64,000 nt of DNA from Microcoleus sp. FACHB-61 (lineage in GTDB: Bacteria > Cyanobacteriota > Cyanobacteriia > Cyanobacteriales > Microcoleaceae), in the NCBI GenBank assembly GCA_014695295.1, contig JACJNY010000007.1, positions 62,001 to 126,000 of the forward strand. Reading direction: 5' to 3'. Positions 49,052 to 63,035 of this stretch are shown here, piece after piece. Both the position numbers and the translations under genes were made by a program. The notes below the pieces were generated by a model. It was not told the origin of the DNA and did no database searches. It worked only from the letters and a program-made list of their open reading frames with translations. Position 1 is the first letter of the stretch; each line of letters begins with the position of its first letter.

Positions 49052-52000
49052 TTAGGCACCTGCTTTGAGTTTGCAGAATGAATTAGTTGGGCGCAAATCG
49101 CTACTGACAACTGGTGTTGTCCCCGTCTTATCGAAAGCACACATCAAACTTTGTACCCAGTCATCATTCCGAGGTACTTCTCTGAAAAATTCCGCCGGTG
49201 TAGTCTTTGTGCTAGGAGCCGTAAACCGTTGGGTAAACAAGTCGGGTGGTTGAGATAATAGGCCGACATCAAAGCCCCAATTCCGAGCGGGCGGACTGAA
49301 GAAAGGAATTGTACCGCCACCGTTAGAAGTCCTGTAAGTATTAATAGGATACAACTCAGGTGAAATTCCTGTCGGAGAGAAAACACTGCGAGGTAGAGAA
49401 CTTCCTAAGCCCGCCAAGAAGGGTCCGTTACTGTAAGCACTGCGATTTAACTGGATGAATGCACCTATAATTGTGGTACTAATTCCGCCATCTCTCCAGT
49501 TTTCTATGAAACGCGGCAAGTTTTGCAGACCGCCATTAAACTCACCTGTACTGGCATCTATTTTCCGTGAAGGAACGTCCCCTGACCCAACTATTAGATT
49601 GAATTCTTGAGATGTCGGAGTTGCAGGTAGTGGTAGCAGCCACTTGGTTTTCTCGACGTTTGAGCCGATTTGGAGTGAGGAGGCTGATGCTGGTGGCATT
49701 GTATCTGTTGCAGGGCTGATTTGCAACACGGGCATTAATAGCGGCTGCTTATCTAGATTTGGTGCGCTTGAGAATTTCGGCGGTTGTTTAGTCCCATCTG
49801 TAAATTGAAAGCCATTATTTGCATTTTGCAAGTTTACCGCGTTGAGAAAAAACAGGGGCTTTGTCTTCCCGAAATCTAAAGATTGTGGAGTTGTTGCTGA
49901 AGCAAACCACAAAGAGTTCTGATTCGTTGTTCGGGGCACTGTGGAACTTGAAGTGTCAAAGACCTTTATTTTCCCACTTCCCGTCTCAATGCCTAGAGCC
50001 ATTACTTTAGTAGCGCTTGCATCTTTTAATTTACTATTCCCATCCCTTTCAAAAGCAACTCGACGGGGAAAGCGTTGCAATGTAGGAATAGGAGGCTCAG
50101 CAGTTGTCCCTGCTTTATGAGTATTTAGGCTGTAAGTCTGATCTATCTGAGATGTTGCTGTTAGTGGTGTTGTAGCAGTTGGATCGAGATACCAATCATT
50201 TTCCGTACAGGCCGAAACAGGCAGCTTTGTGCAGACTTCCATTAAATACTCTGGATAATCCCCGCGTCGCTGAATAGGCGTTACAAAGTTATTGAAGTAA
50301 GAACTGTTTAGACCATTACCACTAATAGTCCGGTAGTCAGCGTCCTTGAGATTATCGTTGGGAGTGCCGTCAACAACGCCACTAGCATTAAATGCACCAC
50401 TACTGAGTCCATTAGTAACAAAGTTATTGTTATAAAATCCTTGATTCTGCCGAAGTTGAGTAGCAGGCTGAGGAGCAGGTAGACCGGGAATAGTAGAAGT
50501 ACCAAATGTCGCCCCGCCTGCATTATTTCTCAGATCAAAATCTCCCTCATTGCGGAAGCCTTCACGGAAAGTGCCAGAAAGTATGGTGACAGCATCCCCC
50601 AGCACCGTTGCGGGTCGCCAGTCGTCACCCGTACAAGCAGGAAGCCGCGGGTCGCCTTTACGACAGGCAAAGCTTGTATTGAGGTTACTGCGATCGTAGA
50701 AGGCAGTACCCGCACCGTCTGTAAACTCTTGTTGGGTGTGTTTGTTAAACTCTCCTTTGATATAAACAGGCAAATTTGATACCAGGGTTAAGCCCTTTTC
50801 CTTTACCACGTCTTCCACACTATTAACTTGTGCAGGGGCAGCGCCCCCCCGGAATAGCTTTTCTCCATTGATCAGCATAATCGCGTTCGGACGACGGGTA
50901 GGGTCGAGCCGAGAGTCTGTTGGACTCACTGTTTTGCTTTTATCTTCATCAAAAACGCCTGAACCTGCGCTGGTTTCTTTTCGCTCGCTGCGATCGGGTA
51001 GGGCGTCGTCTCTAGTGGCATAAATGATCCCACTGTATGGTAGAAGATACTCTTTACCAGTAGCATTTTTCGGCCCTGTACTAATCGATTGGGTAATTGT
51101 TGCCGTGTCACCCCTCATAACACCTATATCCAAAACAGTAGCCCGAATTTCCAAGGGTTGCCGTTCTTCTAGGGCGAGGTCGTATTTTCCTGATAATTTG
51201 GCTTTTTGAGTTCCTGTTAGGGGACTGCTGAGAGTAAAGGTTTCGTCAACATTGGTAGTTGAGTCATTGCGGTCTATGGCCTTAATGTCTCTCCCATCCA
51301 AAAATGCCACTTCCTTGATCACACCGTCAGGAATATCAGCAGTAGTAGACTTAGCACCCAAGGTGAAACCGGGCGTACCCAAAATGCCAAAGGAACACAC
51401 TGTAGCGTCAATGGCTGCGTTATCCGCCAAGGTGCGACTAGCTGGAGCCTTCAGCAGAGCATTTCTTAAAGGCTCATTAGCAAAGCGACCGTTAGGGAAA
51501 ACATAATTTGCTTGTTTCTCTAGGTTCGATGGGTTCGCGCCTCCCAGTAAGCCGGTGGTTGGACTTTGTACAGAAGCAGCGTTGGGTCTTGCCGTAGTAG
51601 GAGGAGGGCCGTAAACTACCCCGTTGTTTGAGCCAATGAAAGCGTCGCGCGTCCCTGCTCGCGTAGTCGTTCCCGGTACGAAATCGCCGCTGACATCTGC
51701 AAGGGTTGTACCGAAGTTTCTGGCTGTTGAAGAGGTACTGGGGTCGTAATAACTGCTGATGCAGGCAATGGGGGTTTGGCCTGGATCTGGATAGGGTTTA
51801 GTAGGATCGTAGGCATTATCTGCATAGTGATAAACTGCTGTTGCTCGCATCCGCAAATCGCCCTTGGCATACTTCTTGGGCGTGTTGATGTCAATGGTAC
51901 TAACCGCTGCTGGTAGCACTGCTGAAGTGGCAGGCAAGGGATTAGTCGCCCAACCGTTCGCAGGTGCAAGAGGATCAGCAGTGCCATTGTTATAAACTTT

Positions 52001-54100
52001 TTGCACTCCCAGTACAGGCGACATCGGCATCGTATCCGGCCAGACAATAGGGTATGTTTCTGTAATTGCAGTTGCCGGATCGTTGTATGTCGGTAATGCT
52101 TCTACCGCAGTTGTTGTCGGATTGTCCCATCCAGGCGGGGGTAGGAAAGAATCCACGCGATCGTAAACTCCGCCCCCTGTTACTACCCGCAGACCCCCAA
52201 CGCCATCAACTGGTGTTTCAGGTGCTTGGGCCGCTGCTAGTTCCCAGAATCCCGCGCGGTCTGTCGATCCCACGTCCGCGAGTTCCGTCACGCGAGGGGT
52301 GCGAGTGCGTACTTCTGTAGTGTCGGCGCCGTTTTCATCTTGCCATTTTGACCCGACAATTGTTTGTGGCGGTTCTAACCCGATAAATTTGGGCGGTGTA
52401 CTGGTATCGTCCCACCGCTGCTGTGGTAAGTTGTTGCCTACTTGGATGCGATCGCCCAGAAGTTTTTCATCTGTAGGTTCTAATGTGGGGTTTACTGCTG
52501 GTAGATTAACAAGTGTGATACCACTGGGGCCTGCAAGACCCCCGCTAATCGCAGTATCCGCGTTATTAAGCAGGTTCCACTCTTTTACAGGGCCAAGACT
52601 ATCCCCAGTACCCTGTATTAAAGATGAGGGAGTTGGGGTGGTGTCTCCAAAAGGCACTTTCCGCAGTCTTGCTTTAAAGTAACCCTGCAGCGCTCGTCTG
52701 CGGCTAGTGACAAAATCTGGTCCTTTTGTAAGTTGCTGGACTGATAATGGATCGGCAGCTATTGGATATGTATAGGTATCTAAGGCTGGAGGAGTGGGAG
52801 TAGTGCTGGCAATCCATGAGTCTACTACATTTGATAGACGGTCGGAGTAAGCTTGGTTGTTATAAAGTACGTCTAATTTATTGGTGCTAGTGGATGCGCT
52901 AAGTGTTTTTGTAGTTGGCTGTCCACCTTGTATAAAAAGATCCACATTCACCGTTTTTTGGTCAGTCACAACCCCAGCATTAACTACATTGCCGCTAACA
53001 ATTATCTTGCTGTTTTCTTGTTCATAAAAACAAGATTTTGGGCTGCTGACTTGAAATAATTTTAAGTTCGCGCGTGTGGTTGCGAACAAATTGCTATTGG
53101 TAAATATCCGCCCGTTTATACTAAAATCAACCCCAGCAGAGAGTTCTAAGTCATCTTCATAAACAACCGCATTATTGCTGAGAGGAATACGACTTTGGTC
53201 TTGCTGGTACTCTAGAGCTGAAAAGCTTGGAACTCCTTTAAATGCCTCTTCGTTATTGGTGGGGTTTGGGTTTGTGATGGGTAAATTAACTGTATAGACA
53301 AAAAAACTTTTTTTCAGCCTGCCTTCCGATTTATACCAACCCGAATCGCCTACCAAACTAGCGCTAGTACCAGCCGCCGCAGCACATTTCGGATCTGATA
53401 TCTTCCCGGTCATCGGTGGAGTTCTTGCCTCTAAAGGCTGTCTTGCTCTGATAAAACTCCCTGCATCTGGCGAAGTCGTTTTGCGCTCTGGACTGCGGAA
53501 GTAAATACCATAAAGTGTAAAAGTGTCAAACTTGCCGTTGTTGTCCGTATCAACCGCATATTTCCATGCAGTATTTATCTGTTCGTCTTTTTCGGCATTC
53601 GGGAGCTTCGTAGGGTCAAAGGGAGCGATTGTACCATTCCCGTCGAGATCATACTTAACTGTCAGTCGCTCTTCACCACCGAATGTATAAATATCCTGAG
53701 TAGAACCCGTAGCCGACATCATCCGGTACATTTCATTGTCGGAGGGAGTAGCTGTCGGTCTTTGCGGGTCTTCCCGCAGCATAAACTGAATTTTCGCTTT
53801 TGCCCGATCGAGCGCGGGAGTCGCGGCCGCCAGCACCTGCTGGTTCACGCGCACGTTACGCGCCGTATTCGCCCGATCGAACGATCGCAGGGTAATCGCC
53901 ACAGTCAACAATATTACTACCAGCAACACCATCGTCACCGTCGGCAGCACAAACCCCGCCATCGGTAGTCTTGCCCTCCGGCCCATAGCCATCAGGGTTT
54001 GCAGCATTGCTCTCATCAGCCGCTTTGCCCCGGATCTGGTAACACCAGCAATCCGCCGCAGCAGGGATACGATAACTTTGGATAATTTGCTCTTAAACAT
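49052..54100 (-). CDS. hpsA: HpsA-like hormogonium polysaccharide protein
   Basis: A 1682-residue protein. Near the N-terminus a basic segment leads to GFVLPTVTMVLLVVILLTVA, a pilin-like hydrophobic helix, then SFDRANTARNVRVNQQVLAA ATPALDRAKAKIQF, as in PilX-like minor pilins. The remaining 1600 residues are Ser/Thr/Pro/Asn-rich and beta-like with scattered cysteines (CSFGILG, CRKGDPRLPACTGDDW). This size, N-terminus and the following hpsB, hpsC, hpsD identify HpsA, required for hormogonium polysaccharide accumulation and motility in Nostoc (known). Probably exported or surface-associated. Confidence 0.88.
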   Translation of the reverse strand: MFKSKLSKVIVSLLRRIAGVTRSGAKRLMRAMLQTLMAMGRRARLPMAGFVLPTVTMVLLVVILLTVAITLRSFDRANTARNVRVNQQVLAAATPALDRAKAKIQFMLREDPQRPTATPSDNEMYRMMSATGSTQDIYTFGGEERLTVKYDLDGNGTIAPFDPTKLPNAEKDEQINTAWKYAVDTDNNGKFDTFTLYGIYFRSPERKTTSPDAGSFIRARQPLEARTPPMTGKISDPKCAAAAGTSASLVGDSGWYKSEGRLKKSFFVYTVNLPITNPNPTNNEEAFKGVPSFSALEYQQDQSRIPLSNNAVVYEDDLELSAGVDFSINGRIFTNSNLFATTRANLKLFQVSSPKSCFYEQENSKIIVSGNVVNAGVVTDQKTVNVDLFIQGGQPTTKTLSASTSTNKLDVLYNNQAYSDRLSNVVDSWIASTTPTPPALDTYTYPIAADPLSVQQLTKGPDFVTSRRRALQGYFKARLRKVPFGDTTPTPSSLIQGTGDSLGPVKEWNLLNNADTAISGGLAGPSGITLVNLPAVNPTLEPTDEKLLGDRIQVGNNLPQQRWDDTSTPPKFIGLEPPQTIVGSKWQDENGADTTEVRTRTPRVTELADVGSTDRAGFWELAAAQAPETPVDGVGGLRVVTGGGVYDRVDSFLPPPGWDNPTTTAVEALPTYNDPATAITETYPIVWPDTMPMSPVLGVQKVYNNGTADPLAPANGWATNPLPATSAVLPAAVSTIDINTPKKYAKGDLRMRATAVYHYADNAYDPTKPYPDPGQTPIACISSYYDPSTSSTARNFGTTLADVSGDFVPGTTTRAGTRDAFIGSNNGVVYGPPPTTARPNAASVQSPTTGLLGGANPSNLEKQANYVFPNGRFANEPLRNALLKAPASRTLADNAAIDATVCSFGILGTPGFTLGAKSTTADIPDGVIKEVAFLDGRDIKAIDRNDSTTNVDETFTLSSPLTGTQKAKLSGKYDLALEERQPLEIRATVLDIGVMRGDTATITQSISTGPKNATGKEYLLPYSGIIYATRDDALPDRSERKETSAGSGVFDEDKSKTVSPTDSRLDPTRRPNAIMLINGEKLFRGGAAPAQVNSVEDVVKEKGLTLVSNLPVYIKGEFNKHTQQEFTDGAGTAFYDRSNLNTSFACRKGDPRLPACTGDDWRPATVLGDAVTILSGTFREGFRNEGDFDLRNNAGGATFGTSTIPGLPAPQPATQLRQNQGFYNNNFVTNGLSSGAFNASGVVDGTPNDNLKDADYRTISGNGLNSSYFNNFVTPIQRRGDYPEYLMEVCTKLPVSACTENDWYLDPTATTPLTATSQIDQTYSLNTHKAGTTAEPPIPTLQRFPRRVAFERDGNSKLKDASATKVMALGIETGSGKIKVFDTSSSTVPRTTNQNSLWFASATTPQSLDFGKTKPLFFLNAVNLQNANNGFQFTDGTKQPPKFSSAPNLDKQPLLMPVLQISPATDTMPPASASSLQIGSNVEKTKWLLPLPATPTSQEFNLIVGSGDVPSRKIDASTGEFNGGLQNLPRFIENWRDGGISTTIIGAFIQLNRSAYSNGPFLAGLGSSLPRSVFSPTGISPELYPINTYRTSNGGGTIPFFSPPARNWGFDVGLLSQPPDLFTQRFTAPSTKTTPAEFFREVPRNDDWVQSLMCAFDKTGTTPVVSSDLRPTNSFCKLKAGA

Positions 54101-54688
54101 TGACGCCTTCCTGAATAATTTCAGAGATGGTATTGCAGGTAGTTACTGCTTGACAGTACAATCCCATCTTTATTGTTCCCATTTTCCGCAACTTACATAT
54201 CAGCCTCTTGCACAAATTTAAATCTGTACCTTGGCTGAAAAATAAAACCCACAAACCCGCGACCAAAATCACCGCCGATAACATATTCTTCAGCGAAAGA
54301 TTTGCCCTGCAAAGATTTTGGCCTAGGAACTACACCCTAGCTTATTTCACATCCGATTGTCAGTGTCCAGAGCGAGAATCTGTGCGATCACTCAACAACT
54401 GTGATCCGGATCGTATCCGCTGTATTTCCCGGCCCTTGCCTTGCCGACTTTGTTGCTGTGCTCCTGTTGCTACCGATTTCAATCGCCGGAATCTAGAATG
54501 TAGAGTGGGCGATCGAATTGTCGTCAGGCGTATCGGTGCGATCGAATCTAATTTGGGCGATCGAATTTCCGCGATGCCTCAAAGTGCGATCGAATTTCCG
54601 CGATGCCTCAAAGTGCGATCGAATTTTCGTTTTACCCCCCGGCGCACTGTCAGTACAAGTGCAAAATATAAACCTACCACCCCCACTC
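54101..54688. other. Divergent hpsA/sulfotransferase upstream region with 29-bp repeats
   Basis: It holds the promoters of hpsA (minus) and the sulfotransferase gene (plus). A 29-base unit (GCGATCGAATTTCCGCGATG then CCTCAAAGT) repeats from 54557, 54586 and partly 54615. CGATCGAAT words recur from 54510. No additional gene is supported. Confidence 0.6.
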
Positions 54689-55453
54689 ATGAAACAAACT
54701 CCCAAACCCCCCGACTTCATCATCATCGGCGCCCAAAAAGGCGGCACAACATCTCTGTACAACTACCTAATCCAACATCCCCAAATCGCCCCCGCCGCCC
54801 AAAAAGAAATCCATTACTTCGACTTCAACTTCGACAAAAGCCCAGACTGGTACTGTTCCCAATTTCCCCAGCCCCAAACCGGCGAAAATCTACTAACCGG
54901 AGAAGCCAGCCCCTACTACATCTGTCACCCCCAAGTTCCGCAACGAATCCACGATTTATTTCCCGAAGTTAAAATAATCGCCCTGCTGAGAAACCCAGTA
55001 GAACGCGCAATCTCCCACTATTATTACTATATCAAAATAGGCTACGAATCCCTATCCTTAGAAAAGGCGATCGCCTCCGAACCGGAAAGACTCAAAGGCG
55101 AAATAGAAAAACTCCAAACCAACCCAACCTACTACAGTTACGAACACCAACACCACAGTTATCTAACCCGAGGCATTTACGCCGAGCAACTCCCAGCCTG
55201 GATGAAACTCTTTCCCAAATCACAACTTTTAATCCTCAAAAGCGAAGACTTGTATACCAATCCCTTCGGCACATACAACAGCGTCTTAGAATTTCTAGAA
55301 TTGCCGCCGCACCAACTACAAACCTACGAAAAATACAACGCCACCCAATATCCGCCCATCAGCGACACAGTATACGAGCAATTGAGAGCATATTTTCGAT
55401 CGCACAACCAAAGACTCGCCGAATTGTGCGATCGAGATTTCGGCTGGGACTAA
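54689..55453 (+). CDS. Sulfotransferase
   Basis: A 254-residue PAPS-dependent sulfotransferase. DFIIIGAQKGGTTSLYNYLI is the 5'-phosphosulfate-binding loop and ALLRNPVERAISHYYYYIKI the 3'-phosphate-binding motif; LKSEDLYTNP and YAEQLPAWMKLFP follow. Start ATG 54689 is chosen because conserved sequence begins there; the frame is open further upstream through the CGATCG repeat region. It probably sulfates a polysaccharide or glycan; its position next to the hps cluster suggests the exopolysaccharide as target (inference). Confidence 0.92.
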   Translation: MKQTPKPPDFIIIGAQKGGTTSLYNYLIQHPQIAPAAQKEIHYFDFNFDKSPDWYCSQFPQPQTGENLLTGEASPYYICHPQVPQRIHDLFPEVKIIALLRNPVERAISHYYYYIKIGYESLSLEKAIASEPERLKGEIEKLQTNPTYYSYEHQHHSYLTRGIYAEQLPAWMKLFPKSQLLILKSEDLYTNPFGTYNSVLEFLELPPHQLQTYEKYNATQYPPISDTVYEQLRAYFRSHNQRLAELCDRDFGWD

Positions 55454-56526: not shown

Positions 56527-56742
56527 TCAGTCTGTTTCCTCAGTTTTGGCGCTCGTCTTGACGCGCTGGGGCTTTGGCTCTAAAACCGGTTCGTTTTCCT
56601 GTAACCAAGTTTCGATGTACTCCAACAGAACCTCATTCATGCTGAGGCTACGCATGGCGCAAGATGCTTTGAACTTGGCTCTTGTCTCTTCAGGTAGATA
56701 GATTTTTACGGACACAGTTTTGCTTGTTGTCAAAGTTTCCAT
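56527..56742 (-). CDS. Ribbon-helix-helix DNA-binding protein
   Basis: A 71-residue protein. VSVKIYLPEETRAKFKASCA followed by MRSLSMNEVLLEYIETWLQE is a ribbon-helix-helix fold: a basic strand then two helices, as in ParG, Arc or type II antitoxins. The tail is Lys/Pro-rich. The region before its start holds three ATCGATA palindromes that would suit autoregulation. It may be the regulator or antitoxin for the two downstream genes, or a plasmid-partition relic; no toxin family was recognised. Confidence 0.75.
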   Translation of the reverse strand: METLTTSKTVSVKIYLPEETRAKFKASCAMRSLSMNEVLLEYIETWLQENEPVLEPKPQRVKTSAKTEETD

Positions 56743-56850
56743 ATCGCTATATCGATTTGTCTATGTGTCTAGCCTGACACACAGGCGCGCGATCGGATAG
56801 GGTCGCTTATCGATATAAGGACTTGTCGGCTTGTCCCTATATCGATATAA
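56743..56850 (-). promoter_or_regulatory. Palindrome-rich operator region of the ribbon-helix-helix operon
   Basis: TATATCGAT at 56748-56756, TTATCGATATAA at 56807-56818 and TATATCGATATA at 56838-56849 (perfect palindrome). TATTATATCGATATAG on the minus strand also offers a -10-like TATTAT. Repeated near-identical palindromes before a ribbon-helix-helix gene are typical of autorepression. Confidence 0.6.
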
Positions 56851-56928
56851 TAACAGACATAGCCAAAAAACGACAACCGCGCCGAGTTAAACGCCATTGC
56901 CGTTTCCATACATTCTGCAAAAAAATGT

Positions 56929-56957
56929 TTGACATTCCTACCAGTCTGTGATAGCTT
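56929..56957 (+). promoter_or_regulatory. Candidate promoter of the DAHP synthase leader
   Basis: TTGACA at 56929-56934, a 17-base gap, then TAGCTT at 56952-56957 (weak -10). Transcription from here would include both aromatic leader peptides. The -35 is perfect; the -10 is poor, so the exact start is open. Confidence 0.45.
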
Positions 56958-57002
56958 GTCCAATAGTATTGTGTTTAATCCACAAATCGCAGCACTTCAC
57001 CC

Positions 57003-57059
57003 ATGTTCACAGCCAACAGCTATTTTTATTATTGGTACAGCCAAGTTCGCCCGGAGTGA
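57003..57059 (+). CDS. Aromatic leader peptide 1
   Basis: ATG TTC ACA GCC AAC AGC TAT TTT... encodes MFTANSYFYYWYSQVRPE, 18 residues with seven aromatic ones, six of them consecutive (YFYYWY, codons 57021-57038). The next codons, GTT CGC CCG GAG, form the 5' arm of a hairpin that can compete with a terminator. No strong Shine-Dalgarno is seen. Interpretation: a sensor peptide on which ribosomes stall when Phe-, Tyr- or Trp-tRNA is scarce. Confidence 0.8.
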   Translation: MFTANSYFYYWYSQVRPE

Positions 57060-57091
57060 ATTTGCAATTCACTGTGAACATCCGGGCGAAC
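57045..57091 (+). promoter_or_regulatory. Candidate antiterminator 1
   Basis: GTTCGCCCGGA (57045-57055) is a perfect complement of TCCGGGCGAAC (57081-57091). The inner GTGAATT/AATTCAC (57056-57062/57066-57072) can pair too. The 3' arm runs into the first bases of terminator 1 (57089-57096), so the two structures compete. The 5' arm lies under a ribosome that reaches the leader stop codon at 57057-57059. Confidence 0.65.
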
Positions 57092-57121
57092 CGCAGATTA
57101 ACACCTGCGGTTTTGTTTTTT
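57089..57121 (+). terminator. Attenuator terminator 1
   Basis: AACCGCAG (57089-57096) pairs with CTGCGGTT (57105-57112) over an 8-base loop, followed by TTGTTTTTT. An intrinsic terminator 30 bases after the stop of leader peptide 1. Confidence 0.8.
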
Positions 57122-57166
57122 CTACTTCTTTTCCCAACAACCAATCGACTGCAAGCGAAAACACCG

Positions 57167-57229
57167 ATGACATTATTCAGTAACTGGTACTACAGCTTTT
57201 ATTTTTGGCCCAACAAAAGTTCTGGGTAA
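57167..57229 (+). CDS. Aromatic leader peptide 2
   Basis: Encodes MTLFSNWYYSFYFWPNKSSG, 20 residues with eight aromatic ones (F, WYY, FYFW). TAA at 57227-57229. The final codons AGT TCT GGG T (57218-57227) can pair with the 5' arm of terminator 2. The layout repeats that of leader peptide 1: aromatic codons, then about 8-10 bases, then an antiterminator arm, stop, terminator. The DAHP synthase ATG is 108 bases beyond the stop. Confidence 0.82.
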   Translation: MTLFSNWYYSFYFWPNKSSG

Positions 57230-57264
57230 ATTGTCGCGCTGTCTTTTCGCACGAACCCGGAACT
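57218..57264 (+). promoter_or_regulatory. Candidate antiterminator 2
   Basis: AGTTCTGGGT (57218-57227) pairs with ACCCGGAACT (57255-57264) with one G-U pair, using the whole 5' arm of terminator 2. Ribosome stalling at the aromatic codons 57185-57210 would leave it free; completion of the peptide would cover it and allow termination. Confidence 0.75.
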
Positions 57265-57286
57265 CTTAAAAGTTCCGGGTTTTTTG
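57254..57286 (+). terminator. Attenuator terminator 2
   Basis: AACCCGGAACT (57254-57264) pairs perfectly with AGTTCCGGGTT (57271-57281) around a 6-base loop, followed by a T-run to 57285. It lies 51 bases before the DAHP synthase ATG and has no role there unless conditional. Confidence 0.9.
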
Positions 57287-57336
57287 TTGGTTTTTCGTTG
57301 TCAACCACCCACTTAATTTCCCAGGAAAATACCCTC

Positions 57337-58197
57337 ATGTTAGAAGCCAAACTCGTAACCAAATCTCATCCCGAACACCAAACAATTGTCAAACTCTCAG
57401 AAACAGTCTCAGTCGGCGGCACAGAATTATTAATCATCGGCGGCCCCTGTACCGTCGAAAGTTCCGCACAAATGGAAACAGTCGCCCGCCAACTATCCGC
57501 CGCATCCGTGCAAGCTTTGCGAGGCGGAGTCTACAAACCCCGCACTTCTCCCTATTCTTTCCAAGGGATGGGAATTGAGGGACTGGAAATTTTAGCCGAT
57601 GTCAGCCGGCGTTACGGTTTGCCCGTGGTGACAGAGGTAATGTCGATCGCCCAAATCGAGCCAGTTGTCACCTATGCTGATATGCTGCAATTAGGCAGTC
57701 GCAATATGCAAAACTTCGAGTTACTAAAGGCGATCGGTCAAGCCGGAAAACCAGTCCTGCTAAAACGCGGCTTGTCAGCCACAATCGAAGAATTTGTGAT
57801 GGCCGCCGAATACATACTCAGTCACGGAAATCCTCATGTAGTTCTCTGCGAAAGAGGCATCCGCAGCTTCGACAATTACACGCGGAATGTATTAGATTTA
57901 GGTGCCGTCGCAGCGCTGAAACAGTTAACTCATTTGCCAGTAATTGTAGACCCTTCTCACGCAGTCGGCAAGCGAGAATTAGTCGCGCCACTAGCCAAAG
58001 CAGCGGTTGCTTGCGGTGCAGACGGATTAATTATTGAGTGTCACCCGCAACCGGAAAAATCGGTTTCTGACGCGCGCCAAGCTCTTTCTTTGCCAGATAT
58101 GGTAGATTTAGTTGCGAGTTTGCGGCCTGTAGCCGCCGCAGTTGGGCGCCGCATACGCGAGATTAATGTGCCTTCAGAGGTATTAAGTTTGAAGTGA
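57337..58197 (+). CDS. 3-deoxy-7-phosphoheptulonate (DAHP) synthase
   Basis: A 286-residue type I-beta (AroA/KDO8P-like) DAHP synthase that condenses phosphoenolpyruvate and erythrose 4-phosphate at the entry to the shikimate pathway. Key stretches: LLIIGGPCTVESSAQMETVA, GGVYKPRTSPYSFQGMG, QLGSRNMQNFELLKAIGQ, LLKRGLSATIEEFVMAAEYI, LPVIVDPSHAVGKRELVAPL, LIIECHPQPEKSVSDARQAL. The ATG at 57337 is chosen over upstream in-frame codons because it follows AGGA and begins the short N-terminus; the upstream stretch is the attenuator. No N-terminal ACT/FL regulatory domain is evident, so transcriptional control by the leader would matter. Confidence 0.95.
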   Translation: MLEAKLVTKSHPEHQTIVKLSETVSVGGTELLIIGGPCTVESSAQMETVARQLSAASVQALRGGVYKPRTSPYSFQGMGIEGLEILADVSRRYGLPVVTEVMSIAQIEPVVTYADMLQLGSRNMQNFELLKAIGQAGKPVLLKRGLSATIEEFVMAAEYILSHGNPHVVLCERGIRSFDNYTRNVLDLGAVAALKQLTHLPVIVDPSHAVGKRELVAPLAKAAVACGADGLIIECHPQPEKSVSDARQALSLPDMVDLVASLRPVAAAVGRRIREINVPSEVLSLK

Positions 58198-58499: not shown

Positions 58500-58697
58500 A
58501 TGGCAATACTACTTAACGTTCCCTCGATCGTCTGTGCCGGCTGCGGCGATACAATTACCAAAGCCATCAAAACTGTTGACTCCGAGGCTTCTGTCAATGT
58601 GGATGTCGCAGCTAAGACTGTTACGGTTGAGGCTGAAGCTTCTGAAGAATCAATTAAACAGGCGGTTGTGGTGACAGGCCACACCGTCCAAGATTAA
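58500..58697 (+). CDS. HMA-domain metal chaperone-like protein
   Basis: A 65-residue heavy-metal-associated domain. LLNVPSIVCAGCGDTITKAI holds the CxxC metal site (CAGC), followed by the usual strand-helix-strand order (VNVDVAAKTVTVEAEASEES) ending in a second helix. It resembles CopZ/Atx1, but the strand before the CxxC is not the usual MxC form, so the metal may be copper or zinc. It converges on the SmtB-type repressor gene and belongs to the metal-handling island. Confidence 0.85.
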   Translation: MAILLNVPSIVCAGCGDTITKAIKTVDSEASVNVDVAAKTVTVEAEASEESIKQAVVVTGHTVQD

Positions 58698-58818
58698 TAT
58701 CTAGTTGGGTGGGGGCGGGTTTACAAGATTATTGGTCTTAGGCCGAGATTATTGGTAAAACCCGCCCCTAGAAAATTTTAAATCTATTACCAATGCCCAC
58801 TGCCCAATGCCCAAAAGA

Positions 58819-59259
58819 TTATTCTTCGTCTAAGTGTTCGGCGACGGCTTGGTAAAGTTCCAAAACGTGTCGATCGAGTAAACTATAAAAAACTTGTCTC
58901 CCAACCTTGCGGTAACTTACCAACCGCATCGCCCGCAATGCCCGCAACTGGTGCGATACTGCTGATTCGCTCATGGTCAAAGCTGCAGCCAAGTCACACA
59001 CGCACAGTTCTTGTTTTGCCAAAACCGACAGCAGCCGCAGGCGGTTCGCATCTCCCAAAAGACTGAAAAACTCAGCCATCCGCTGAGCTTTTGCGGTGTT
59101 GAGAACTTGTGTTTGGATGTCCCCGGCCCGCAAACAGTCAACTAAGTGCGGTCGATCGCACGTTGGTGTATCGTTTTGTGCGTGAGGCTGAGTTATCGCT
59201 CCGTTAACAGCAGACTTGGGTGACATCTTTTGCAGGCTTGTTTTAATTCTCATTTTCAT
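58819..59259 (-). CDS. smtB: SmtB/ZiaR-type zinc-responsive repressor
   Basis: A 146-residue ArsR-family repressor. Winged-helix core with AEFFSLLGDANRLRLLSVLA, ELCVCDLAAALTMSESAVSH QLRALRAMRLVSYRK. Metal sites: the alpha-3 ELCVCD cysteines, the alpha-5 pattern DRHVLELYQAVAEHLDE (zinc site of SmtB) and an N-terminal CDRPH segment as in ZiaR. It is divergent from the metallothionein gene, sharing a 113-base promoter region with a SmtB-like operator. Zinc should release it from DNA. Start is taken at 59259; ATG codons slightly inside are possible. Confidence 0.92.
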   Translation of the reverse strand: MKMRIKTSLQKMSPKSAVNGAITQPHAQNDTPTCDRPHLVDCLRAGDIQTQVLNTAKAQRMAEFFSLLGDANRLRLLSVLAKQELCVCDLAAALTMSESAVSHQLRALRAMRLVSYRKVGRQVFYSLLDRHVLELYQAVAEHLDEE

Positions 59260-59305
59260 TTTAGTGCGATCGGCAAACCTTTTGTAACAAAACTTTTACA
59301 TTCCC

Positions 59306-59340
59306 TTGACTTATATCTGAATATATGTTCATATATAAGT
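59306..59340. promoter_or_regulatory. smtA promoter with SmtB-type operator
   Basis: TTGACT (59306-59311) is a -35; CATATA or TATAAG near 59330-59339 is the -10. Between and over them lies the imperfect inverted repeat CTGAATATATGTTCATAT (59318-59335), of the TGAA...TTCA type bound by SmtB proteins. Confidence 0.7.
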
Positions 59341-59372
59341 ATAGACAAACAAACCCACGAGGAAAAACTCAA

Positions 59373-59540
59373 ATGACTACCGTCACCCAAATGAAATGCG
59401 CCTGTCCTTCTTGCCTGTGCGTTGTTAACCTCACAGACGCCATTCAAAAAGAGGGCAAAACATACTGTTCCACTGCTTGCGCTGACGGCCACCCCAACGG
59501 CCAAGGCTGCGGCCACACCGGCTGCGAGTGCAACAAGTAA
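59373..59540 (+). CDS. smtA: Bacterial metallothionein
   Basis: A 55-residue zinc-sequestering protein with nine cysteines and two histidines: MTTVTQMKCACPSCLCVVNL, then YCSTACADGHPNGQGCGHTG CECNK. Cysteine spacing equals SmtA of Synechococcus, including the zinc-finger-like YCSxACADGH segment. ATG at 59373 is preceded by CGAGG and stands behind the operator/promoter; an in-frame ATG at 59325 lies inside the operator and is unlikely. Divergent from its probable repressor. Confidence 0.96.
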   Translation: MTTVTQMKCACPSCLCVVNLTDAIQKEGKTYCSTACADGHPNGQGCGHTGCECNK

Positions 59541-59813
59541 ATATTTGCCTTCACAAAAGGTTAATCCACCACTCTAAAATCTATCTAAAGGGAGATGCGA
59601 ACAGCGCATTTCCCAATTATTTTACTTTTAGGTTAAAGAAAAGTTAAGACAAAACTAATTTAAGGTTAAAGCTGCATTAATAGACTAAGTACAATTGCTC
59701 CTTGCGGAATACAATAGAAGTAAGTTGTACCGCGATACTGAGTACAGATAGTGCTATTAAAAGCAGATACCGAACCAAAATTTGAATACCAAAAGTTTAA
59801 TTAGGAGGGGACA

Positions 59814-60074
59814 ATGAATGAGCGGGAAGATTTTTTACATCCTCGCAATCGGTACTACGGTGATTTCACCCCAGAAAACTTGGCGTTTAATGCCAACTTA
59901 CAGGAATTTGCTCAGAAAATAACTTATATTTGCTCGCTGGAAACTGGGGGGAAAATTAGCGCTGAGAAAGCCTATAAAGATATTAAGGCGCTTTGGAAAG
60001 ACTTAAAATCCTCTAAGAAGCAATTGGGAATTGGTCAAAAACCTCCCAGTACCGGTGAGGAAAATTCACCTTAA
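59814..60074 (+). CDS. Conserved cyanobacterial protein (DUF7219-like)
   Basis: An 86-residue soluble, mostly helical protein: FLHPRNRYYGDFTPENLAFN ANLQEFAQKITYICSLETGG KISAEKAYKDIKALWKDLKS. The pattern is one I have seen in short conserved cyanobacterial proteins (recently DUF7219); function unknown. AGGAGG lies 7-8 bases upstream, a strong start signal. It converges with znuA across a terminator. Confidence 0.7.
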   Translation: MNEREDFLHPRNRYYGDFTPENLAFNANLQEFAQKITYICSLETGGKISAEKAYKDIKALWKDLKSSKKQLGIGQKPPSTGEENSP

Positions 60075-60089
60075 AATCATTGCAGCAAA

Positions 60090-60133
60090 CGCAGCGCTCG
60101 CAATCCAAAACACCTGGGATTGCGAGCGCTGCG
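60090..60133. terminator. Bidirectional intrinsic terminator
   Basis: CGCAGCGCTCGCAATCC (60090-60106) pairs perfectly with GGATTGCGAGCGCTGCG (60117-60133) across 10 bases, with TTTT following on the plus strand; flanking GCAGCAAA/TTTTGCTGC extends the stem. Lies between convergent genes. Confidence 0.9.
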
Positions 60134-60183
60134 TTTTGCTGCGTACCCAGCCAATGTAAGCTGCTTGCTGCACCCTAAGAAGT

Positions 60184-61266
60184 CTATGGTTTGGGAGTTG
60201 GTGTTGCTTCTCTTGCAAAAGAAGTGCAATTGCCGCCGAGGCCAGAAGTAATTGCGCAAGTATTAGTTTTCAGCATTCCCTGATATGTATCAGCACCGGT
60301 GCCGGGGCCGCCCAACTCGTCGCTGTAAAGTTCTTTGTCCGAAATTCCGACATTTGCCTCCCTCGCCACAGTCTGCATCAACTTGGGATTAGTTGTAGTT
60401 TCGGCAAAAATTGTCGGCACTCCTGCGGTCTTAATTTCTGAGGACAATTCGGCAATTCTTGCTGCAGTGGGCTGTTCCTCTGTCGTCACACCCTGCAACG
60501 CTCCAGCAATCTCCAAACCGTAAGCATCGGCATAGTAAGTCAGAGCATCGTGAGTTGTTACTAACTTGCGTTTTTGGGCTGGAATTGTCGCAATTTGATC
60601 TTTTATCCAAGTATCTATTTTTTGCAAATCATCTGTTAAGCTTGCTGCATTTTTAGTATAAAGTTGAGCATTGCTGGGGGAAACTTTTATCAATTGGTCG
60701 CGAATTGTTTCTACCATGCGCAGCCCATTTTGAGGGTTATGCCAAACGTGAGGGTCAGGGACTTTTTCGCCTTCTGTGTGGGGTTGGTTTTCCGCTTTCT
60801 CTTCACCGTGTTCGTGCTCGTGTTCGCCCATCAGCGGTTTGGGAACTGCGACTTCGTGGACGGCGATTTTGGGCGCGGAGTTGGTACTAGATTGAATTAA
60901 CTTAATGATGCTGGGTTCGTGGTTGTAGCCGCCGTATAAAATCAGATTTGCTGTTTCAATCGCTTTGCGGTCTTCCGGCTTGGTTTGGTAGGCGTGGGGG
61001 TCGTCTCCCGGCTCGATGAGACAGGTGGTGTCGATCGAACTTTGAGCGATTTCTTTAGTTATGTCGCAGATAACGCCAGTCGTGGCGACGACTTTGGGCA
61101 AGTTGGCGGCGGGACTGGCTTGAGTTTGAGTTGTGGCGGGACTCTCTGACACCGGATTGCTTGCGTTCTGTCCTCCACTGCACCCAACCAGTCCGCAGCC
61201 GATCGCCAAAACAGCCGCACCGCAGAATCTGCCGCTTTTTCTACGCAAGTTTTTTAACATTTTCAC
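60184..61266 (-). CDS. znuA: Zinc ABC transporter substrate-binding protein
   Basis: A 360-residue cluster A-I metal-binding lipoprotein. Signal with lipobox (AIGCGLVGCSGGQ, lipid on a Cys near residue 29). VVATTGVICDITKEIAQ, DDPHAYQTKPED (first His), a His/Glu-rich loop HEHEHGEEKAENQPHTEGEK typical of zinc-specific members, DPHVWHNPQNG (second His), LVTTHDALTYYADAYGLEIA and ETTTNPKLMQTVAREAN. Delivers zinc to ZnuBC. Divergent from znuC, sharing a region with a Zur-like palindrome. Confidence 0.93.
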   Translation of the reverse strand: MKMLKNLRRKSGRFCGAAVLAIGCGLVGCSGGQNASNPVSESPATTQTQASPAANLPKVVATTGVICDITKEIAQSSIDTTCLIEPGDDPHAYQTKPEDRKAIETANLILYGGYNHEPSIIKLIQSSTNSAPKIAVHEVAVPKPLMGEHEHEHGEEKAENQPHTEGEKVPDPHVWHNPQNGLRMVETIRDQLIKVSPSNAQLYTKNAASLTDDLQKIDTWIKDQIATIPAQKRKLVTTHDALTYYADAYGLEIAGALQGVTTEEQPTAARIAELSSEIKTAGVPTIFAETTTNPKLMQTVAREANVGISDKELYSDELGGPGTGADTYQGMLKTNTCAITSGLGGNCTSFAREATPTPKP

Positions 61267-61272
61267 CTTTGG

Positions 61273-61336
61273 AACGATAATCGTTATTGCTTTTTCGAGT
61301 TATCCTATTCTAGTAGCTACGAACAAGAATCGTTCT
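61273..61336. promoter_or_regulatory. Zur/Fur-like palindromes in the znuA-znuC divergent promoter
   Basis: AACGATAATCGTT (61273-61285) is a perfect palindrome; a second, weaker one, AGAATCGTTCT, lies at 61326-61336. The 84-base divergent region and the zinc-uptake genes on both sides make a Zur operator likely. Confidence 0.6.
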
Positions 61337-61350
61337 CAAAAGTTTTAATT

Positions 61351-62070
61351 ATGTTAGAAGTGCAAGACTTAGCTGTTAATTATCGAGGAATTTCGGCCCT
61401 CAACAGCGTGAATTTCCAGTTAGATCCCGGGCAATTAACCGGTGTGTTCGGCCCCAACGGCGCGGGGAAAAGCACGATGGTGAAAGCGATGCTGGGATTG
61501 ATCCCGGCCTGTCGCGGTTTGGTGAAATATCAGGGGCGGTTGCTGAAGCAACAGTTGTCGCGGGTGGCTTATGTGCCGCAGCGATCGCAAATTGACTGGG
61601 ATTATCCGATTACGGTGTGGAATGCGGTGATGATGGCGCGAACCGTCCAGACTGGTTGGTTTCGCAGTCCCTCGAAGCAGTCGCAAGAATTGGTAAAAGC
61701 TGCTTTGCTGCGGGTGGGAATGTGGGATTTGCGCGATCGGCAAATTGGCGAACTGTCTGGCGGACAGCAGCAGCGGATTTTCTTAGCAAGGTCGATCGCC
61801 CAACAAGCCGATTTATTCTTCTTCGACGAACCTTTTAACGCGATCGACAAAGCAACCGAAGAAATTATTTTTGATATTTTTGCCGAACTCAAAGCCCAAA
61901 ATAAAACAGTGCTAGTAATTAGTCACGATTTAGGCGAAACTTTAAAACAGTACGACAATTTATTATTGCTAAATAAGCAGTTAATTGCAACTGGTTCCTG
62001 GCGGGAAGTCCTCACCGCCGCCAATATTCAAAAAGCCTATGGATACGATTTAAGTTTAGTGGCAGCGTAA
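61351..62070 (+). CDS. znuC: Zinc ABC transporter ATP-binding protein
   Basis: A 239-residue ABC ATPase. Walker A GPNGAGKSTMVKAMLG, Q-loop YVPQRSQIDWDYPITVWNAV, signature LSGGQQQRIFLARSIAQQ, Walker B ADLFFFDEPFNAID, H-loop VISHDLGET. The sequence matches the manganese/zinc (MntA/ZnuC/TroB) group; zinc is assigned from the His-rich loop of the divergent binding protein and the metallothionein neighbourhood. Confidence 0.93.
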   Translation: MLEVQDLAVNYRGISALNSVNFQLDPGQLTGVFGPNGAGKSTMVKAMLGLIPACRGLVKYQGRLLKQQLSRVAYVPQRSQIDWDYPITVWNAVMMARTVQTGWFRSPSKQSQELVKAALLRVGMWDLRDRQIGELSGGQQQRIFLARSIAQQADLFFFDEPFNAIDKATEEIIFDIFAELKAQNKTVLVISHDLGETLKQYDNLLLLNKQLIATGSWREVLTAANIQKAYGYDLSLVAA

Positions 62071-62096
62071 GCAAAAAAAGATTTATCTTTAAAGTG

Positions 62097-62160
62097 GATT
62101 GTGGCACGGGCGTCCCGCCTGTGCAGTTGATTGTGGCACGGGCGTCCCGCCTGTGCAGTT
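62097..62160. repeat. 32-bp tandem duplication with hairpin
   Basis: Two identical units beginning GATTGTGGCACGGGCGTCCC (62097-62128, 62129-62160), each able to fold through GCACGGGCG/CGCCTGTGC-type pairing. Lies between znuC and znuB and may lower readthrough. Confidence 0.85.
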
Positions 62161-62198
62161 GATTGTAGTTGAAAAAATCCTATTATTGACCTAATTCA

Positions 62199-63035
62199 AT
62201 GTTAAATTTGCTAATTGAGCCCCTCAAATTCGAGTTTATGCGAAATGCGCTCGCCGTCGGCGTTTTGCTCGGAATTCTCTGCGCCGTTGTTGGCTCCTAT
62301 TTAATTGTACAGCAAATGGGAATGATGGTTGACATGATTGCCCATTCAGTATTACCCGGATTGCCGGTGGCTTTTTATTTAGGTTTCAATATTTCGATCG
62401 GCGCGTTTATATCGGGAATTATCAGCGCCGTGATTATGGCGTGGATTCAATCACAATCGCGCCTAAAAATTGATGCAGTGATGGCATTAATTTTATCTAC
62501 ATTTTTAGCACTTAGCATCACGCTGATTAGCCTGTTGCGGACGACAAAATTAGACTTAGACGGGTTTTTGTTCGGGAATATCTTGTCAGTTGCACCGGCT
62601 GACGTGCAACTGACTTTTGTCATAACTTTGATAATTTTGGCGACGGTTAAAATGTTTTATAAAGAACTGCTATTTTATACTTTTGACCCCCTGGGAGCGC
62701 AAGCGTGCGGTTTGCCTGTAAACTGGATTTATTTTGGGATGATTTCAGCGATTACGCTGACGATTGTTGCGAGTTTGCAAACTGTGGGAGCGCTGTTAGT
62801 AATTTCGCTGTTAATCGGGCCGGGAATAACGGCGTATTTGTTGGTAAAAGAGCTACATTTAATGATGGGATTAGGAGCTATTATTGGGATTATAGCTAGC
62901 GTGACTGGTATGTATCTCAGCTATTATTGGAATATGCCGTCTGGTGCGGCAATTGTATTAGTTGTTTTTGGGTTATTTTTAGTAGCTTTGCTGTTCAGTC
63001 CCAGTCAAGGGATTTTGACCAGAAAGAGAGGATAA
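62199..63035 (+). CDS. znuB: Zinc ABC transporter permease
   Basis: A 278-residue ABC-3 family permease with eight or nine hydrophobic segments (for example GVLLGILCAVVGSYLIVQQM, VMALILSTFLALSITLISLL, IGPGITAYLLVKELHLMMGL). GMMVDMIAHSVLPGLPVAFY and FDPLGAQACGLPVNWIYFGM are family-typical. Partner of ZnuC; 128 bases after it, separated by the 32-base duplication. Confidence 0.93.
   Translation: MLNLLIEPLKFEFMRNALAVGVLLGILCAVVGSYLIVQQMGMMVDMIAHSVLPGLPVAFYLGFNISIGAFISGIISAVIMAWIQSQSRLKIDAVMALILSTFLALSITLISLLRTTKLDLDGFLFGNILSVAPADVQLTFVITLIILATVKMFYKELLFYTFDPLGAQACGLPVNWIYFGMISAITLTIVASLQTVGALLVISLLIGPGITAYLLVKELHLMMGLGAIIGIIASVTGMYLSYYWNMPSGAAIVLVVFGLFLVALLFSPSQGILTRKRG

Follow-up and report, generated by a model that had tools for sequence, protein, structure and literature searches.

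The question raised by this locus is how transcription of its DAHP synthase gene (57337 to 58197; forward strand, as are all of the attenuator features described below) might be controlled. The locus lies in a 64,000-nucleotide stretch of the Microcoleus sp. FACHB-61 genome, which is referred to as the window. The first-pass annotation of this stretch had proposed that an aromatic leader peptide with a complete attenuator precedes the gene. The identity of the 286-amino-acid product, a protein consisting of the catalytic domain only, was confirmed with Pfam and NCBIfam profiles (TIGR01361, 362.4 bits versus a cut-off of 267.75; PRK08673, 404.5 versus a cut-off of 335). The comparisons reported here suggest that the segment from 56929 to 57336 is a two-gate ribosome-mediated transcription attenuator of this gene, with two aromatic leaders in series, and we put the probability of this reading at roughly 0.9.

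The unit closer to the gene, unit 2, begins with leader ORF 2 (57167 to 57229), which encodes the peptide MTLFSNWYYSFYFWPNKSSG, 8 of whose 20 residues are aromatic; the aromatic codons are at 57176 and within 57185 to 57208. The last codons of this leader, running into the stop codon, provide the 5' arm of antiterminator 2 (57218 to 57227, AGTTCTGGGT), which forms ten pairs, one of them G-U, with the segment from 57255 to 57264 (ACCCGGAACT). That segment is common to the two helices, serving as the 3' arm of antiterminator 2 and as the 5' arm of terminator 2 (57253 to 57282), in which it pairs perfectly with 57271 to 57280 (AGTTCCGGGT) ahead of a T run. The peptide, the ten-pair complementarity, and the strong terminator that the first-pass annotation had described were all found in place, and its description of the attenuator as complete was accurate for unit 2. 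It had miscounted, as unit 2 is one of a tandem pair and the upstream unit (57003 to 57113) was missed.

Unit 1, just upstream of unit 2, is itself complete, with an aromatic peptide, an antiterminator, and a terminator of its own. Leader ORF 1 (57003 to 57059), which is conserved in relatives, encodes MFTANSYFYYWYSQVRPE, with aromatic codons at 57006 and within 57021 to 57038. The 5' arm of antiterminator 1 (57045 to 57055) lies within the final codons of leader 1 and forms 11 pairs, which covary, with the 3' arm (57081 to 57091). Four bases of the latter (57088 to 57091), the whole of the overlap in the window, are common to terminator 1 (57088 to 57113), in which 57088 to 57096 pairs with 57105 to 57113 and a T-rich tract follows. 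There are 7 aromatic codons in unit 1 and 8 in unit 2 of the window, Trp codons among them. A further pairing of the start of leader 1 with the bases just before 57081, picked out by eye in the window, is absent, on visual inspection, from alignment rows of other lineages and was discarded for that reason. Short reading frames with clustered codons for the end products are a general feature of ribosome-mediated attenuators, as is an intrinsic terminator between reading frame and gene; both appear to be present here.

A promoter-like site, TTGACA-17-TAGCTT (56929 to 56957; -35 box at 56929 to 56934 and -10-like box at 56952 to 56957), lies ahead of both leaders. Since this single site precedes both units, they should share one transcript. 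Of 173 distinct regions, 147 could be anchored, and in 143 of these a TTGAC box was found 70 to 230 nt upstream of the 3' arm of the leader-1 antiterminator, at a median distance of 162 nt (middle half, 153 to 163), compared to only 23 of 147 shuffled segments. A short way upstream of the promoter-like site, and facing away from it, a ParG-like small protein is encoded on the minus strand (56527 to 56742). Farther away in the window are genes for a sulfotransferase-domain protein (54635 to 55450) and, on the minus strand, a protein of 1682 residues (49052 to 54100) with no Pfam match at E values up to 0.001.

Pairing and covariation point to the same arrangement in each unit, in which the last codons of the leader would act as the antiterminator 5' arm and the 3' arm would belong to the terminator. 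A ribosome that finished the peptide and rested on the stop codon would cover the 5' arm, so that the terminator would form and transcription would halt. When charged tRNA was short, the ribosome would stall on codons for Phe, Tyr, or Trp, leaving the arm free, and the antiterminator would form first, allowing RNA polymerase to continue. With two such gates in series, the basal level would be expected to be lower, and the response steeper, than with a single gate.

The nascent transcript of the window was folded to the point at which the shared arm ends, with an assumed downstream ribosome footprint of twelve bases, and the folds supported this scheme. The antiterminator formed in both units without a ribosome or with a ribosome at the aromatic codons, was shortened with the ribosome on the last aromatic codons, and did not form in either unit with the ribosome on the stop codon. 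The two units differed in how far the alternative helices exclude one another, as the helices of unit 1 share only 4 to 5 bases whereas the overlap in unit 2 is complete. Formation of antiterminator 2 changed the median energy of terminator 2 from -17.3 to 0 kcal/mol, and formation of antiterminator 1 changed that of terminator 1 from -17.3 to -9.1 kcal/mol (from -13.3 to -7.5 kcal/mol in the window). The models thus predict that a ribosome resting on the stop codon masks the antiterminator and that the antiterminator excludes the terminator, fully in unit 2 and by 4 to 5 bases in unit 1. With so few shared bases a shortened terminator can persist in unit 1 (7 pairs in the window fold), and because its terminator is only about halved by the antiterminator, unit 1 would be the softer switch; modeled in this way, its switching may be partial.

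In minimum-energy folds of the complete unit 2, the terminator was present in all five states tried. Antitermination there must therefore be kinetic, set by the order of transcription, as in other attenuators. In trpL and pheL of Escherichia coli, antiterminator and terminator are mutually exclusive, and in the trp scheme an untranslated leader terminates via a protecting 1:2 hairpin. The cyanobacterial units resemble these leaders in the residue-rich peptide and in the mutually exclusive helices. They differ in that the antiterminator arm is within the last codons, in the mixture of Phe, Tyr, and Trp codons, in the tandem arrangement, in the lack of a match to an Rfam leader family, and in that no protecting (pause) 1:2 hairpin was seen in the window folds, the ribosome-free nascent folds giving the antiterminator in both units. 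Without a protecting hairpin, a wholly untranslated leader should be read through.

The first-pass annotation had suggested conservation of the peptide and stems in relatives as a check on its proposal, and peptides, antiterminators, and terminators proved to be conserved and to covary across the class. Among 80 orthologous loci from a public collection, ranging from Microcoleus to Nostoc, Calothrix, Brasilonema, Scytonema, Leptolyngbya, and others, and with the window counted as the 81st, the core pattern of leader 1 was present in 74 of 81 and that of leader 2 in 77 of 81. Strains carrying both leaders include Nostoc carneum NIES-2107, Calothrix brevissima NIES-22, cyanobacterium PCC 7702, and Anabaena subtropica FACHB-260. 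Four of the 80 loci had less than 300 nt upstream (L034, L043, L048, and L059), and four of the misses of the core pattern had too little upstream DNA. In a draw of 292 genomes across the phylum, an orthologue with 70% identity or more was present in 29, one of which is the genome of the window. All of the 28 other orthologues were preceded by at least one leader and 25 by both aromatic ORFs; in the remaining three, the first leader was truncated (L087) or only the second (L108) or the first (L112) was present.

Covariance models of the first unit (R1) and the second unit (R2) matched 84 and 74 of 242 class genomes, respectively (53 and 51 of 120 genera), with 71 genomes in both lists. A DAHP synthase orthologue follows 82 of the 84 R1 sites (67 of the 69 that were fetched, with identities of 64 to 78%, and 15 more by coordinates). 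The two exceptions are L176, which is at a contig end, and L135, where a decayed DAHP synthase fragment lies downstream. All three R2-only sites precede the orthologue; the first leader is strongly diverged in two of them and none was found in the other. At L135 (genome G030), leader 1 with its antiterminator leads into the DAHP synthase fragment; neither a terminator nor a second leader was seen, and the leader at this locus has decayed along with the gene.

The 178 loci collected overall represent 173 distinct upstream regions, 169 of which are at least 300 nt long. Two units were detected in 152 of the 169 regions, one in 15, and none in 2 under a lenient rule, and the corresponding numbers under a strict pairing rule were 131, 36, and 2. 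In six of the 15 one-unit loci the script had missed the other leader, which is readable (L013, L063, L110, L185, L187, and L191). Seven appear to be truly single (L108, L112, L159, L173, L175, L178, and L192), and the last two are L087, with its truncated first leader, and L073, in which no first leader was found. Searches for the first leader at L108 and L206 and for the second leader at L112 and at the five loci of one family (L159, L173, L175, L178, and L192) were negative. Two units are thus not obligatory, and the six first-only and two second-only loci offer natural tests of the role of each gate.

Such units were rare outside the upstream regions of DAHP synthase genes. A search rule was used that combined a short ORF with at least 5 aromatic residues in 12 codons, a terminator, and pairing of the ORF end with the terminator 5' arm; its strict version specified a pairing score of at least 18 and at least 3 shared bases. 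In the 132,203 bases that precede orthologues, the strict rule identified 299 units, of which one was a decoy frame; in 734,264 strand-bases flanking the 80 loci, it identified a single case. The lenient rule gave 9 cases in these flanks, which contain 287 aromatic ORFs, 44 of them with a terminator. The strict rule found no further case on either strand in the rest of the window. In the genome of the window there was no further R1 match at E values up to 5, and the only extra R2 matches had E values of 3.3 and 3.4, so that no further credible site was detected with either model. The codon pattern for FYFW occurs at 27 sites in this genome (reversed pattern, 9 sites), 20 of which were examined for the reading frame around the pattern alone. 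One site, judged by its reading frame alone (L115; G000:C5:100417, minus strand), is another aromatic-dense short frame, GFWFRFYFWFRR.

Covariation was evaluated by comparing the alignments with shuffled versions of them, a comparison that ignores kinship among the rows. The diverse leader-1 alignment (A3) was anchored at the stop codon and left out the mis-anchored L103 and the duplicates L187 and L203. In its 80 rows, 94.1% of antiterminator 1 cells were paired, with 74 double-change cells versus a shuffle mean of 27.3, and 99.6% of terminator 1 cells were paired, with 20 double-change cells versus 2.0. The corresponding values were 80.7% and 46 versus 22.3 for antiterminator 2 and 88.7% and 55 versus 20.0 for terminator 2; these unit 2 values apply to 69 rows only, as the diverse leader-2 alignment (A4) omits the mis-anchored L142 and 13 loci without a scripted second leader, some of which do carry one (for example, L110, L144, L152, and L158). 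Pairing in the diverse sets fell to 16 to 60% when the partner columns were offset by one to three positions. Among close relatives, antiterminator 1 had 33 double-change cells (shuffle mean, 7.1) and terminator 2 had 22 (7.0); terminator 1 was nearly invariant (3 versus 0.1) and antiterminator 2 varied little (3 versus 1.0).

The numbers of double-change pairs and of pair types were within the range of the shuffles for antiterminator 2 (297 and 399 of 500) and terminator 2 (299 and 235 of 500) in the diverse rows and for antiterminator 1 in close relatives (164 and 478 of 500). The covariation support for unit 2 comes, therefore, from the cells and the score. In the shared arm of unit 1, G replaces A in 19 cells (two columns), and pairing was kept in all 19 for the terminator and in 18 of 19 for the antiterminator. 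Mutually exclusive helices predict this behavior, in which three strands change together. By the sequence tests available, the pair of attenuators is conserved and under selection, and the attenuation interpretation of the first-pass annotation is supported.

The limited overlap in unit 1 bears on an explanation in which true switching is confined to unit 2; the terminator of unit 1 would then be constitutive or weakly modulated, and its leader would serve mainly to adjust basal transcription. The 4 to 5 shared bases and the 7-pair terminator stem that is left in unit 1, compared to the complete overlap and median residual energy of 0 in unit 2, are what such an arrangement would give. However, unit 1 was matched at least as widely as unit 2 (84 versus 74 of 242 genomes), antiterminator 1 covaries strongly, and unit 1 stands alone at the five loci of the family without a second leader. 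A passive unit 1 therefore seems unlikely.

The codons of the leaders are consistent with ribosomes that sense charged tRNA. In the close-relative alignments, not counting the outer aromatic codons and one leader-2 codon that an alignment gap interrupts, there are 16 distinct variant codons at 11 aromatic positions, of which 6 are synonymous, 8 exchange one aromatic residue for another, and 2 leave the class. The 14 of 16 that remain aromatic compare with only 8 of 45 single-base neighbors of Phe, Tyr, and Trp codons that would. All three residues are present in 158 of 160 leader-1 and 139 of 144 leader-2 peptides classifiable by a simple rule, counts that omit 23 unclassified ORFs, some of them decoys. 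With all three types of codon in nearly all leaders, a shortage of any of the end products would elicit a response from the enzyme that opens the common pathway. Across the class, the aromatic cluster shifts and is reordered yet persists (for example, in L102, L110, L111, and L113). In the second leader of L035 (L035:2832-2981), an 18-base in-frame insertion adds a further aromatic stretch to give the peptide MTAFMSWFYSVYFWFGFYFWFGTCSG. No in-frame ATG, GTG, or TTG was seen ahead of the leader-2 core in L003.

The same variation argues against arrest peptides, for which TnaC is the model and which would detect a free amino acid in the exit tunnel of the ribosome rather than charged tRNA through codon stalling. 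Short conserved cores such as YFYFW and WFYGFYFW do look motif-like in Nostocales, but across the class the residues of the cluster differ in placement, order, and number while remaining aromatic, and the C termini of the peptides follow the RNA pairing. Furthermore, a peptide that stalled on abundance would induce the gene when the amino acid was plentiful, the opposite of what is expected for a biosynthetic enzyme. Sensing through the exit tunnel is thus very improbable.

It is likewise most unlikely that the attenuated short transcripts function primarily as trans-acting small RNAs, with attenuation being secondary. Termination at either site would yield a defined short RNA, and trans roles are known for the trp leader RNA of Sinorhizobium, but pairing within the leader together with coding accounts for much of the base conservation. 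Control by a T-box (tRNA-binding) element or another known riboswitch class, with the ORFs being incidental, is hardly credible, even though T-boxes likewise have a terminator and a competing antiterminator, because the ORFs are conserved at the codon level and no Rfam family, that for T-boxes included, was matched at E values up to 1 in the window segment from 56600 to 57600 or at the gathering score in 20 loci. Two RNA switches in series ahead of one gene are also found in tandem riboswitches and tandem T-boxes. The attenuator pair resembles them in this respect and differs in that the sensor would be the translating ribosome and in that no such Rfam family was matched.

The domain composition of the enzyme encoded downstream may also bear on its control. 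The genome encodes two DAHP synthases, as identified with PF00793. The one with the attenuator has 1vs1 (276 residues) as its best solved relative and matches longer relatives such as 1rzm only over residues 70 to 337. Its paralogue (L081) has an N-terminal ferredoxin-like domain (PF18152) and matches 1rzm over residues 1 to 334. No match to the ferredoxin-like domain was found in the gated enzyme, unlike the paralogue, and no aromatic ORF was found in the ca. 1.2 kb present upstream of the paralogue in L081. In Thermotoga, the ferredoxin-like domain mediates feedback inhibition. As the gated enzyme lacks this domain, control at the RNA level may replace allosteric feedback. We consider it fairly probable, with less confidence than in the attenuator pair itself, that two ribosomes in turn would read the supply of charged Phe, Tyr, and Trp tRNAs, so that this feedback-free DAHP synthase would be made only if both stalled.

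Downstream of the DAHP synthase gene, the window contains a metal-related gene cluster (58500 to 63035), which includes a gene for a protein with a heavy-metal-associated domain, an ArsR-family regulator gene (minus strand) divergent from one for a prokaryotic metallothionein, and a znuA gene (minus strand) divergent from genes for an ABC ATPase and an ABC-3 permease.

Attenuation ahead of a DAHP synthase gene has a precedent. As far as the excerpted text of the sources describes it, the aroR leader preceding aroF of Corynebacterium glutamicum encodes a peptide with Phe-Tyr-Phe, and transcription of aroF, which encodes DAHP synthase, is increased under Phe limitation via ribosome stalling (PMC11802643, PMC4046766). 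In the same excerpts, E. coli trpL and pheL are described as leader peptides rich in the regulating amino acid and located ahead of a biosynthetic gene (PMC11802643). The cyanobacterial locus shares with aroR-aroF an aromatic leader peptide ahead of DAHP synthase. It differs in having two serial units, whose 7 and 8 aromatic codons include Trp codons, and in occurring in a different phylum, compared to the one leader with Phe-Tyr-Phe, and no Tyr effect, in the excerpts on C. glutamicum (PMC11802643, PMC4046766). Set beside aroR by description, the cyanobacterial attenuator is judged to be analogous only. A survey of leader genes from 2016 noted, in the portion available, that the attenuation mechanism was not backed by reliable data in cyanobacteria (PMC4833913). 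In the available portions of the open-access literature there was no description of leader-peptide attenuation at DAHP synthase in cyanobacteria, Synechocystis and Anabaena included (PMC4833913, PMC8632094), and none of the open-access titles listed for tandem ribosome-mediated attenuation concerned a tandem leader. The first-pass annotation had known of no description for DAHP synthase in cyanobacteria, and this held within the open-access literature. Attenuation at DAHP synthase is not new as such; the serial, three-amino-acid, cyanobacterial form is new within that literature.

In the accessible part of a study on Synechocystis, DAHP synthase was treated as an early flux-controlling node, and slower growth, rather than compensatory upregulation, was inferred at low Phe (PMC10875765). 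For phenylpropanoid engineering, strains with a gated DAHP synthase gene should respond to low Phe, unlike what was inferred for Synechocystis. If the reading as two ribosome-mediated attenuators in series is true, no earlier attenuator of this kind would have been shown in cyanobacteria, and the pair would also be the first tandem one. Serial gates on a single gene would permit a direct test of how attenuators combine, with the one-gate lineages as natural controls. The attenuator would also be evidence that the leading ribosome closely trails RNA polymerase in cyanobacteria, and its class-wide covariation would imply that transcription and translation are coupled tightly enough for a ribosome to steer RNA polymerase.
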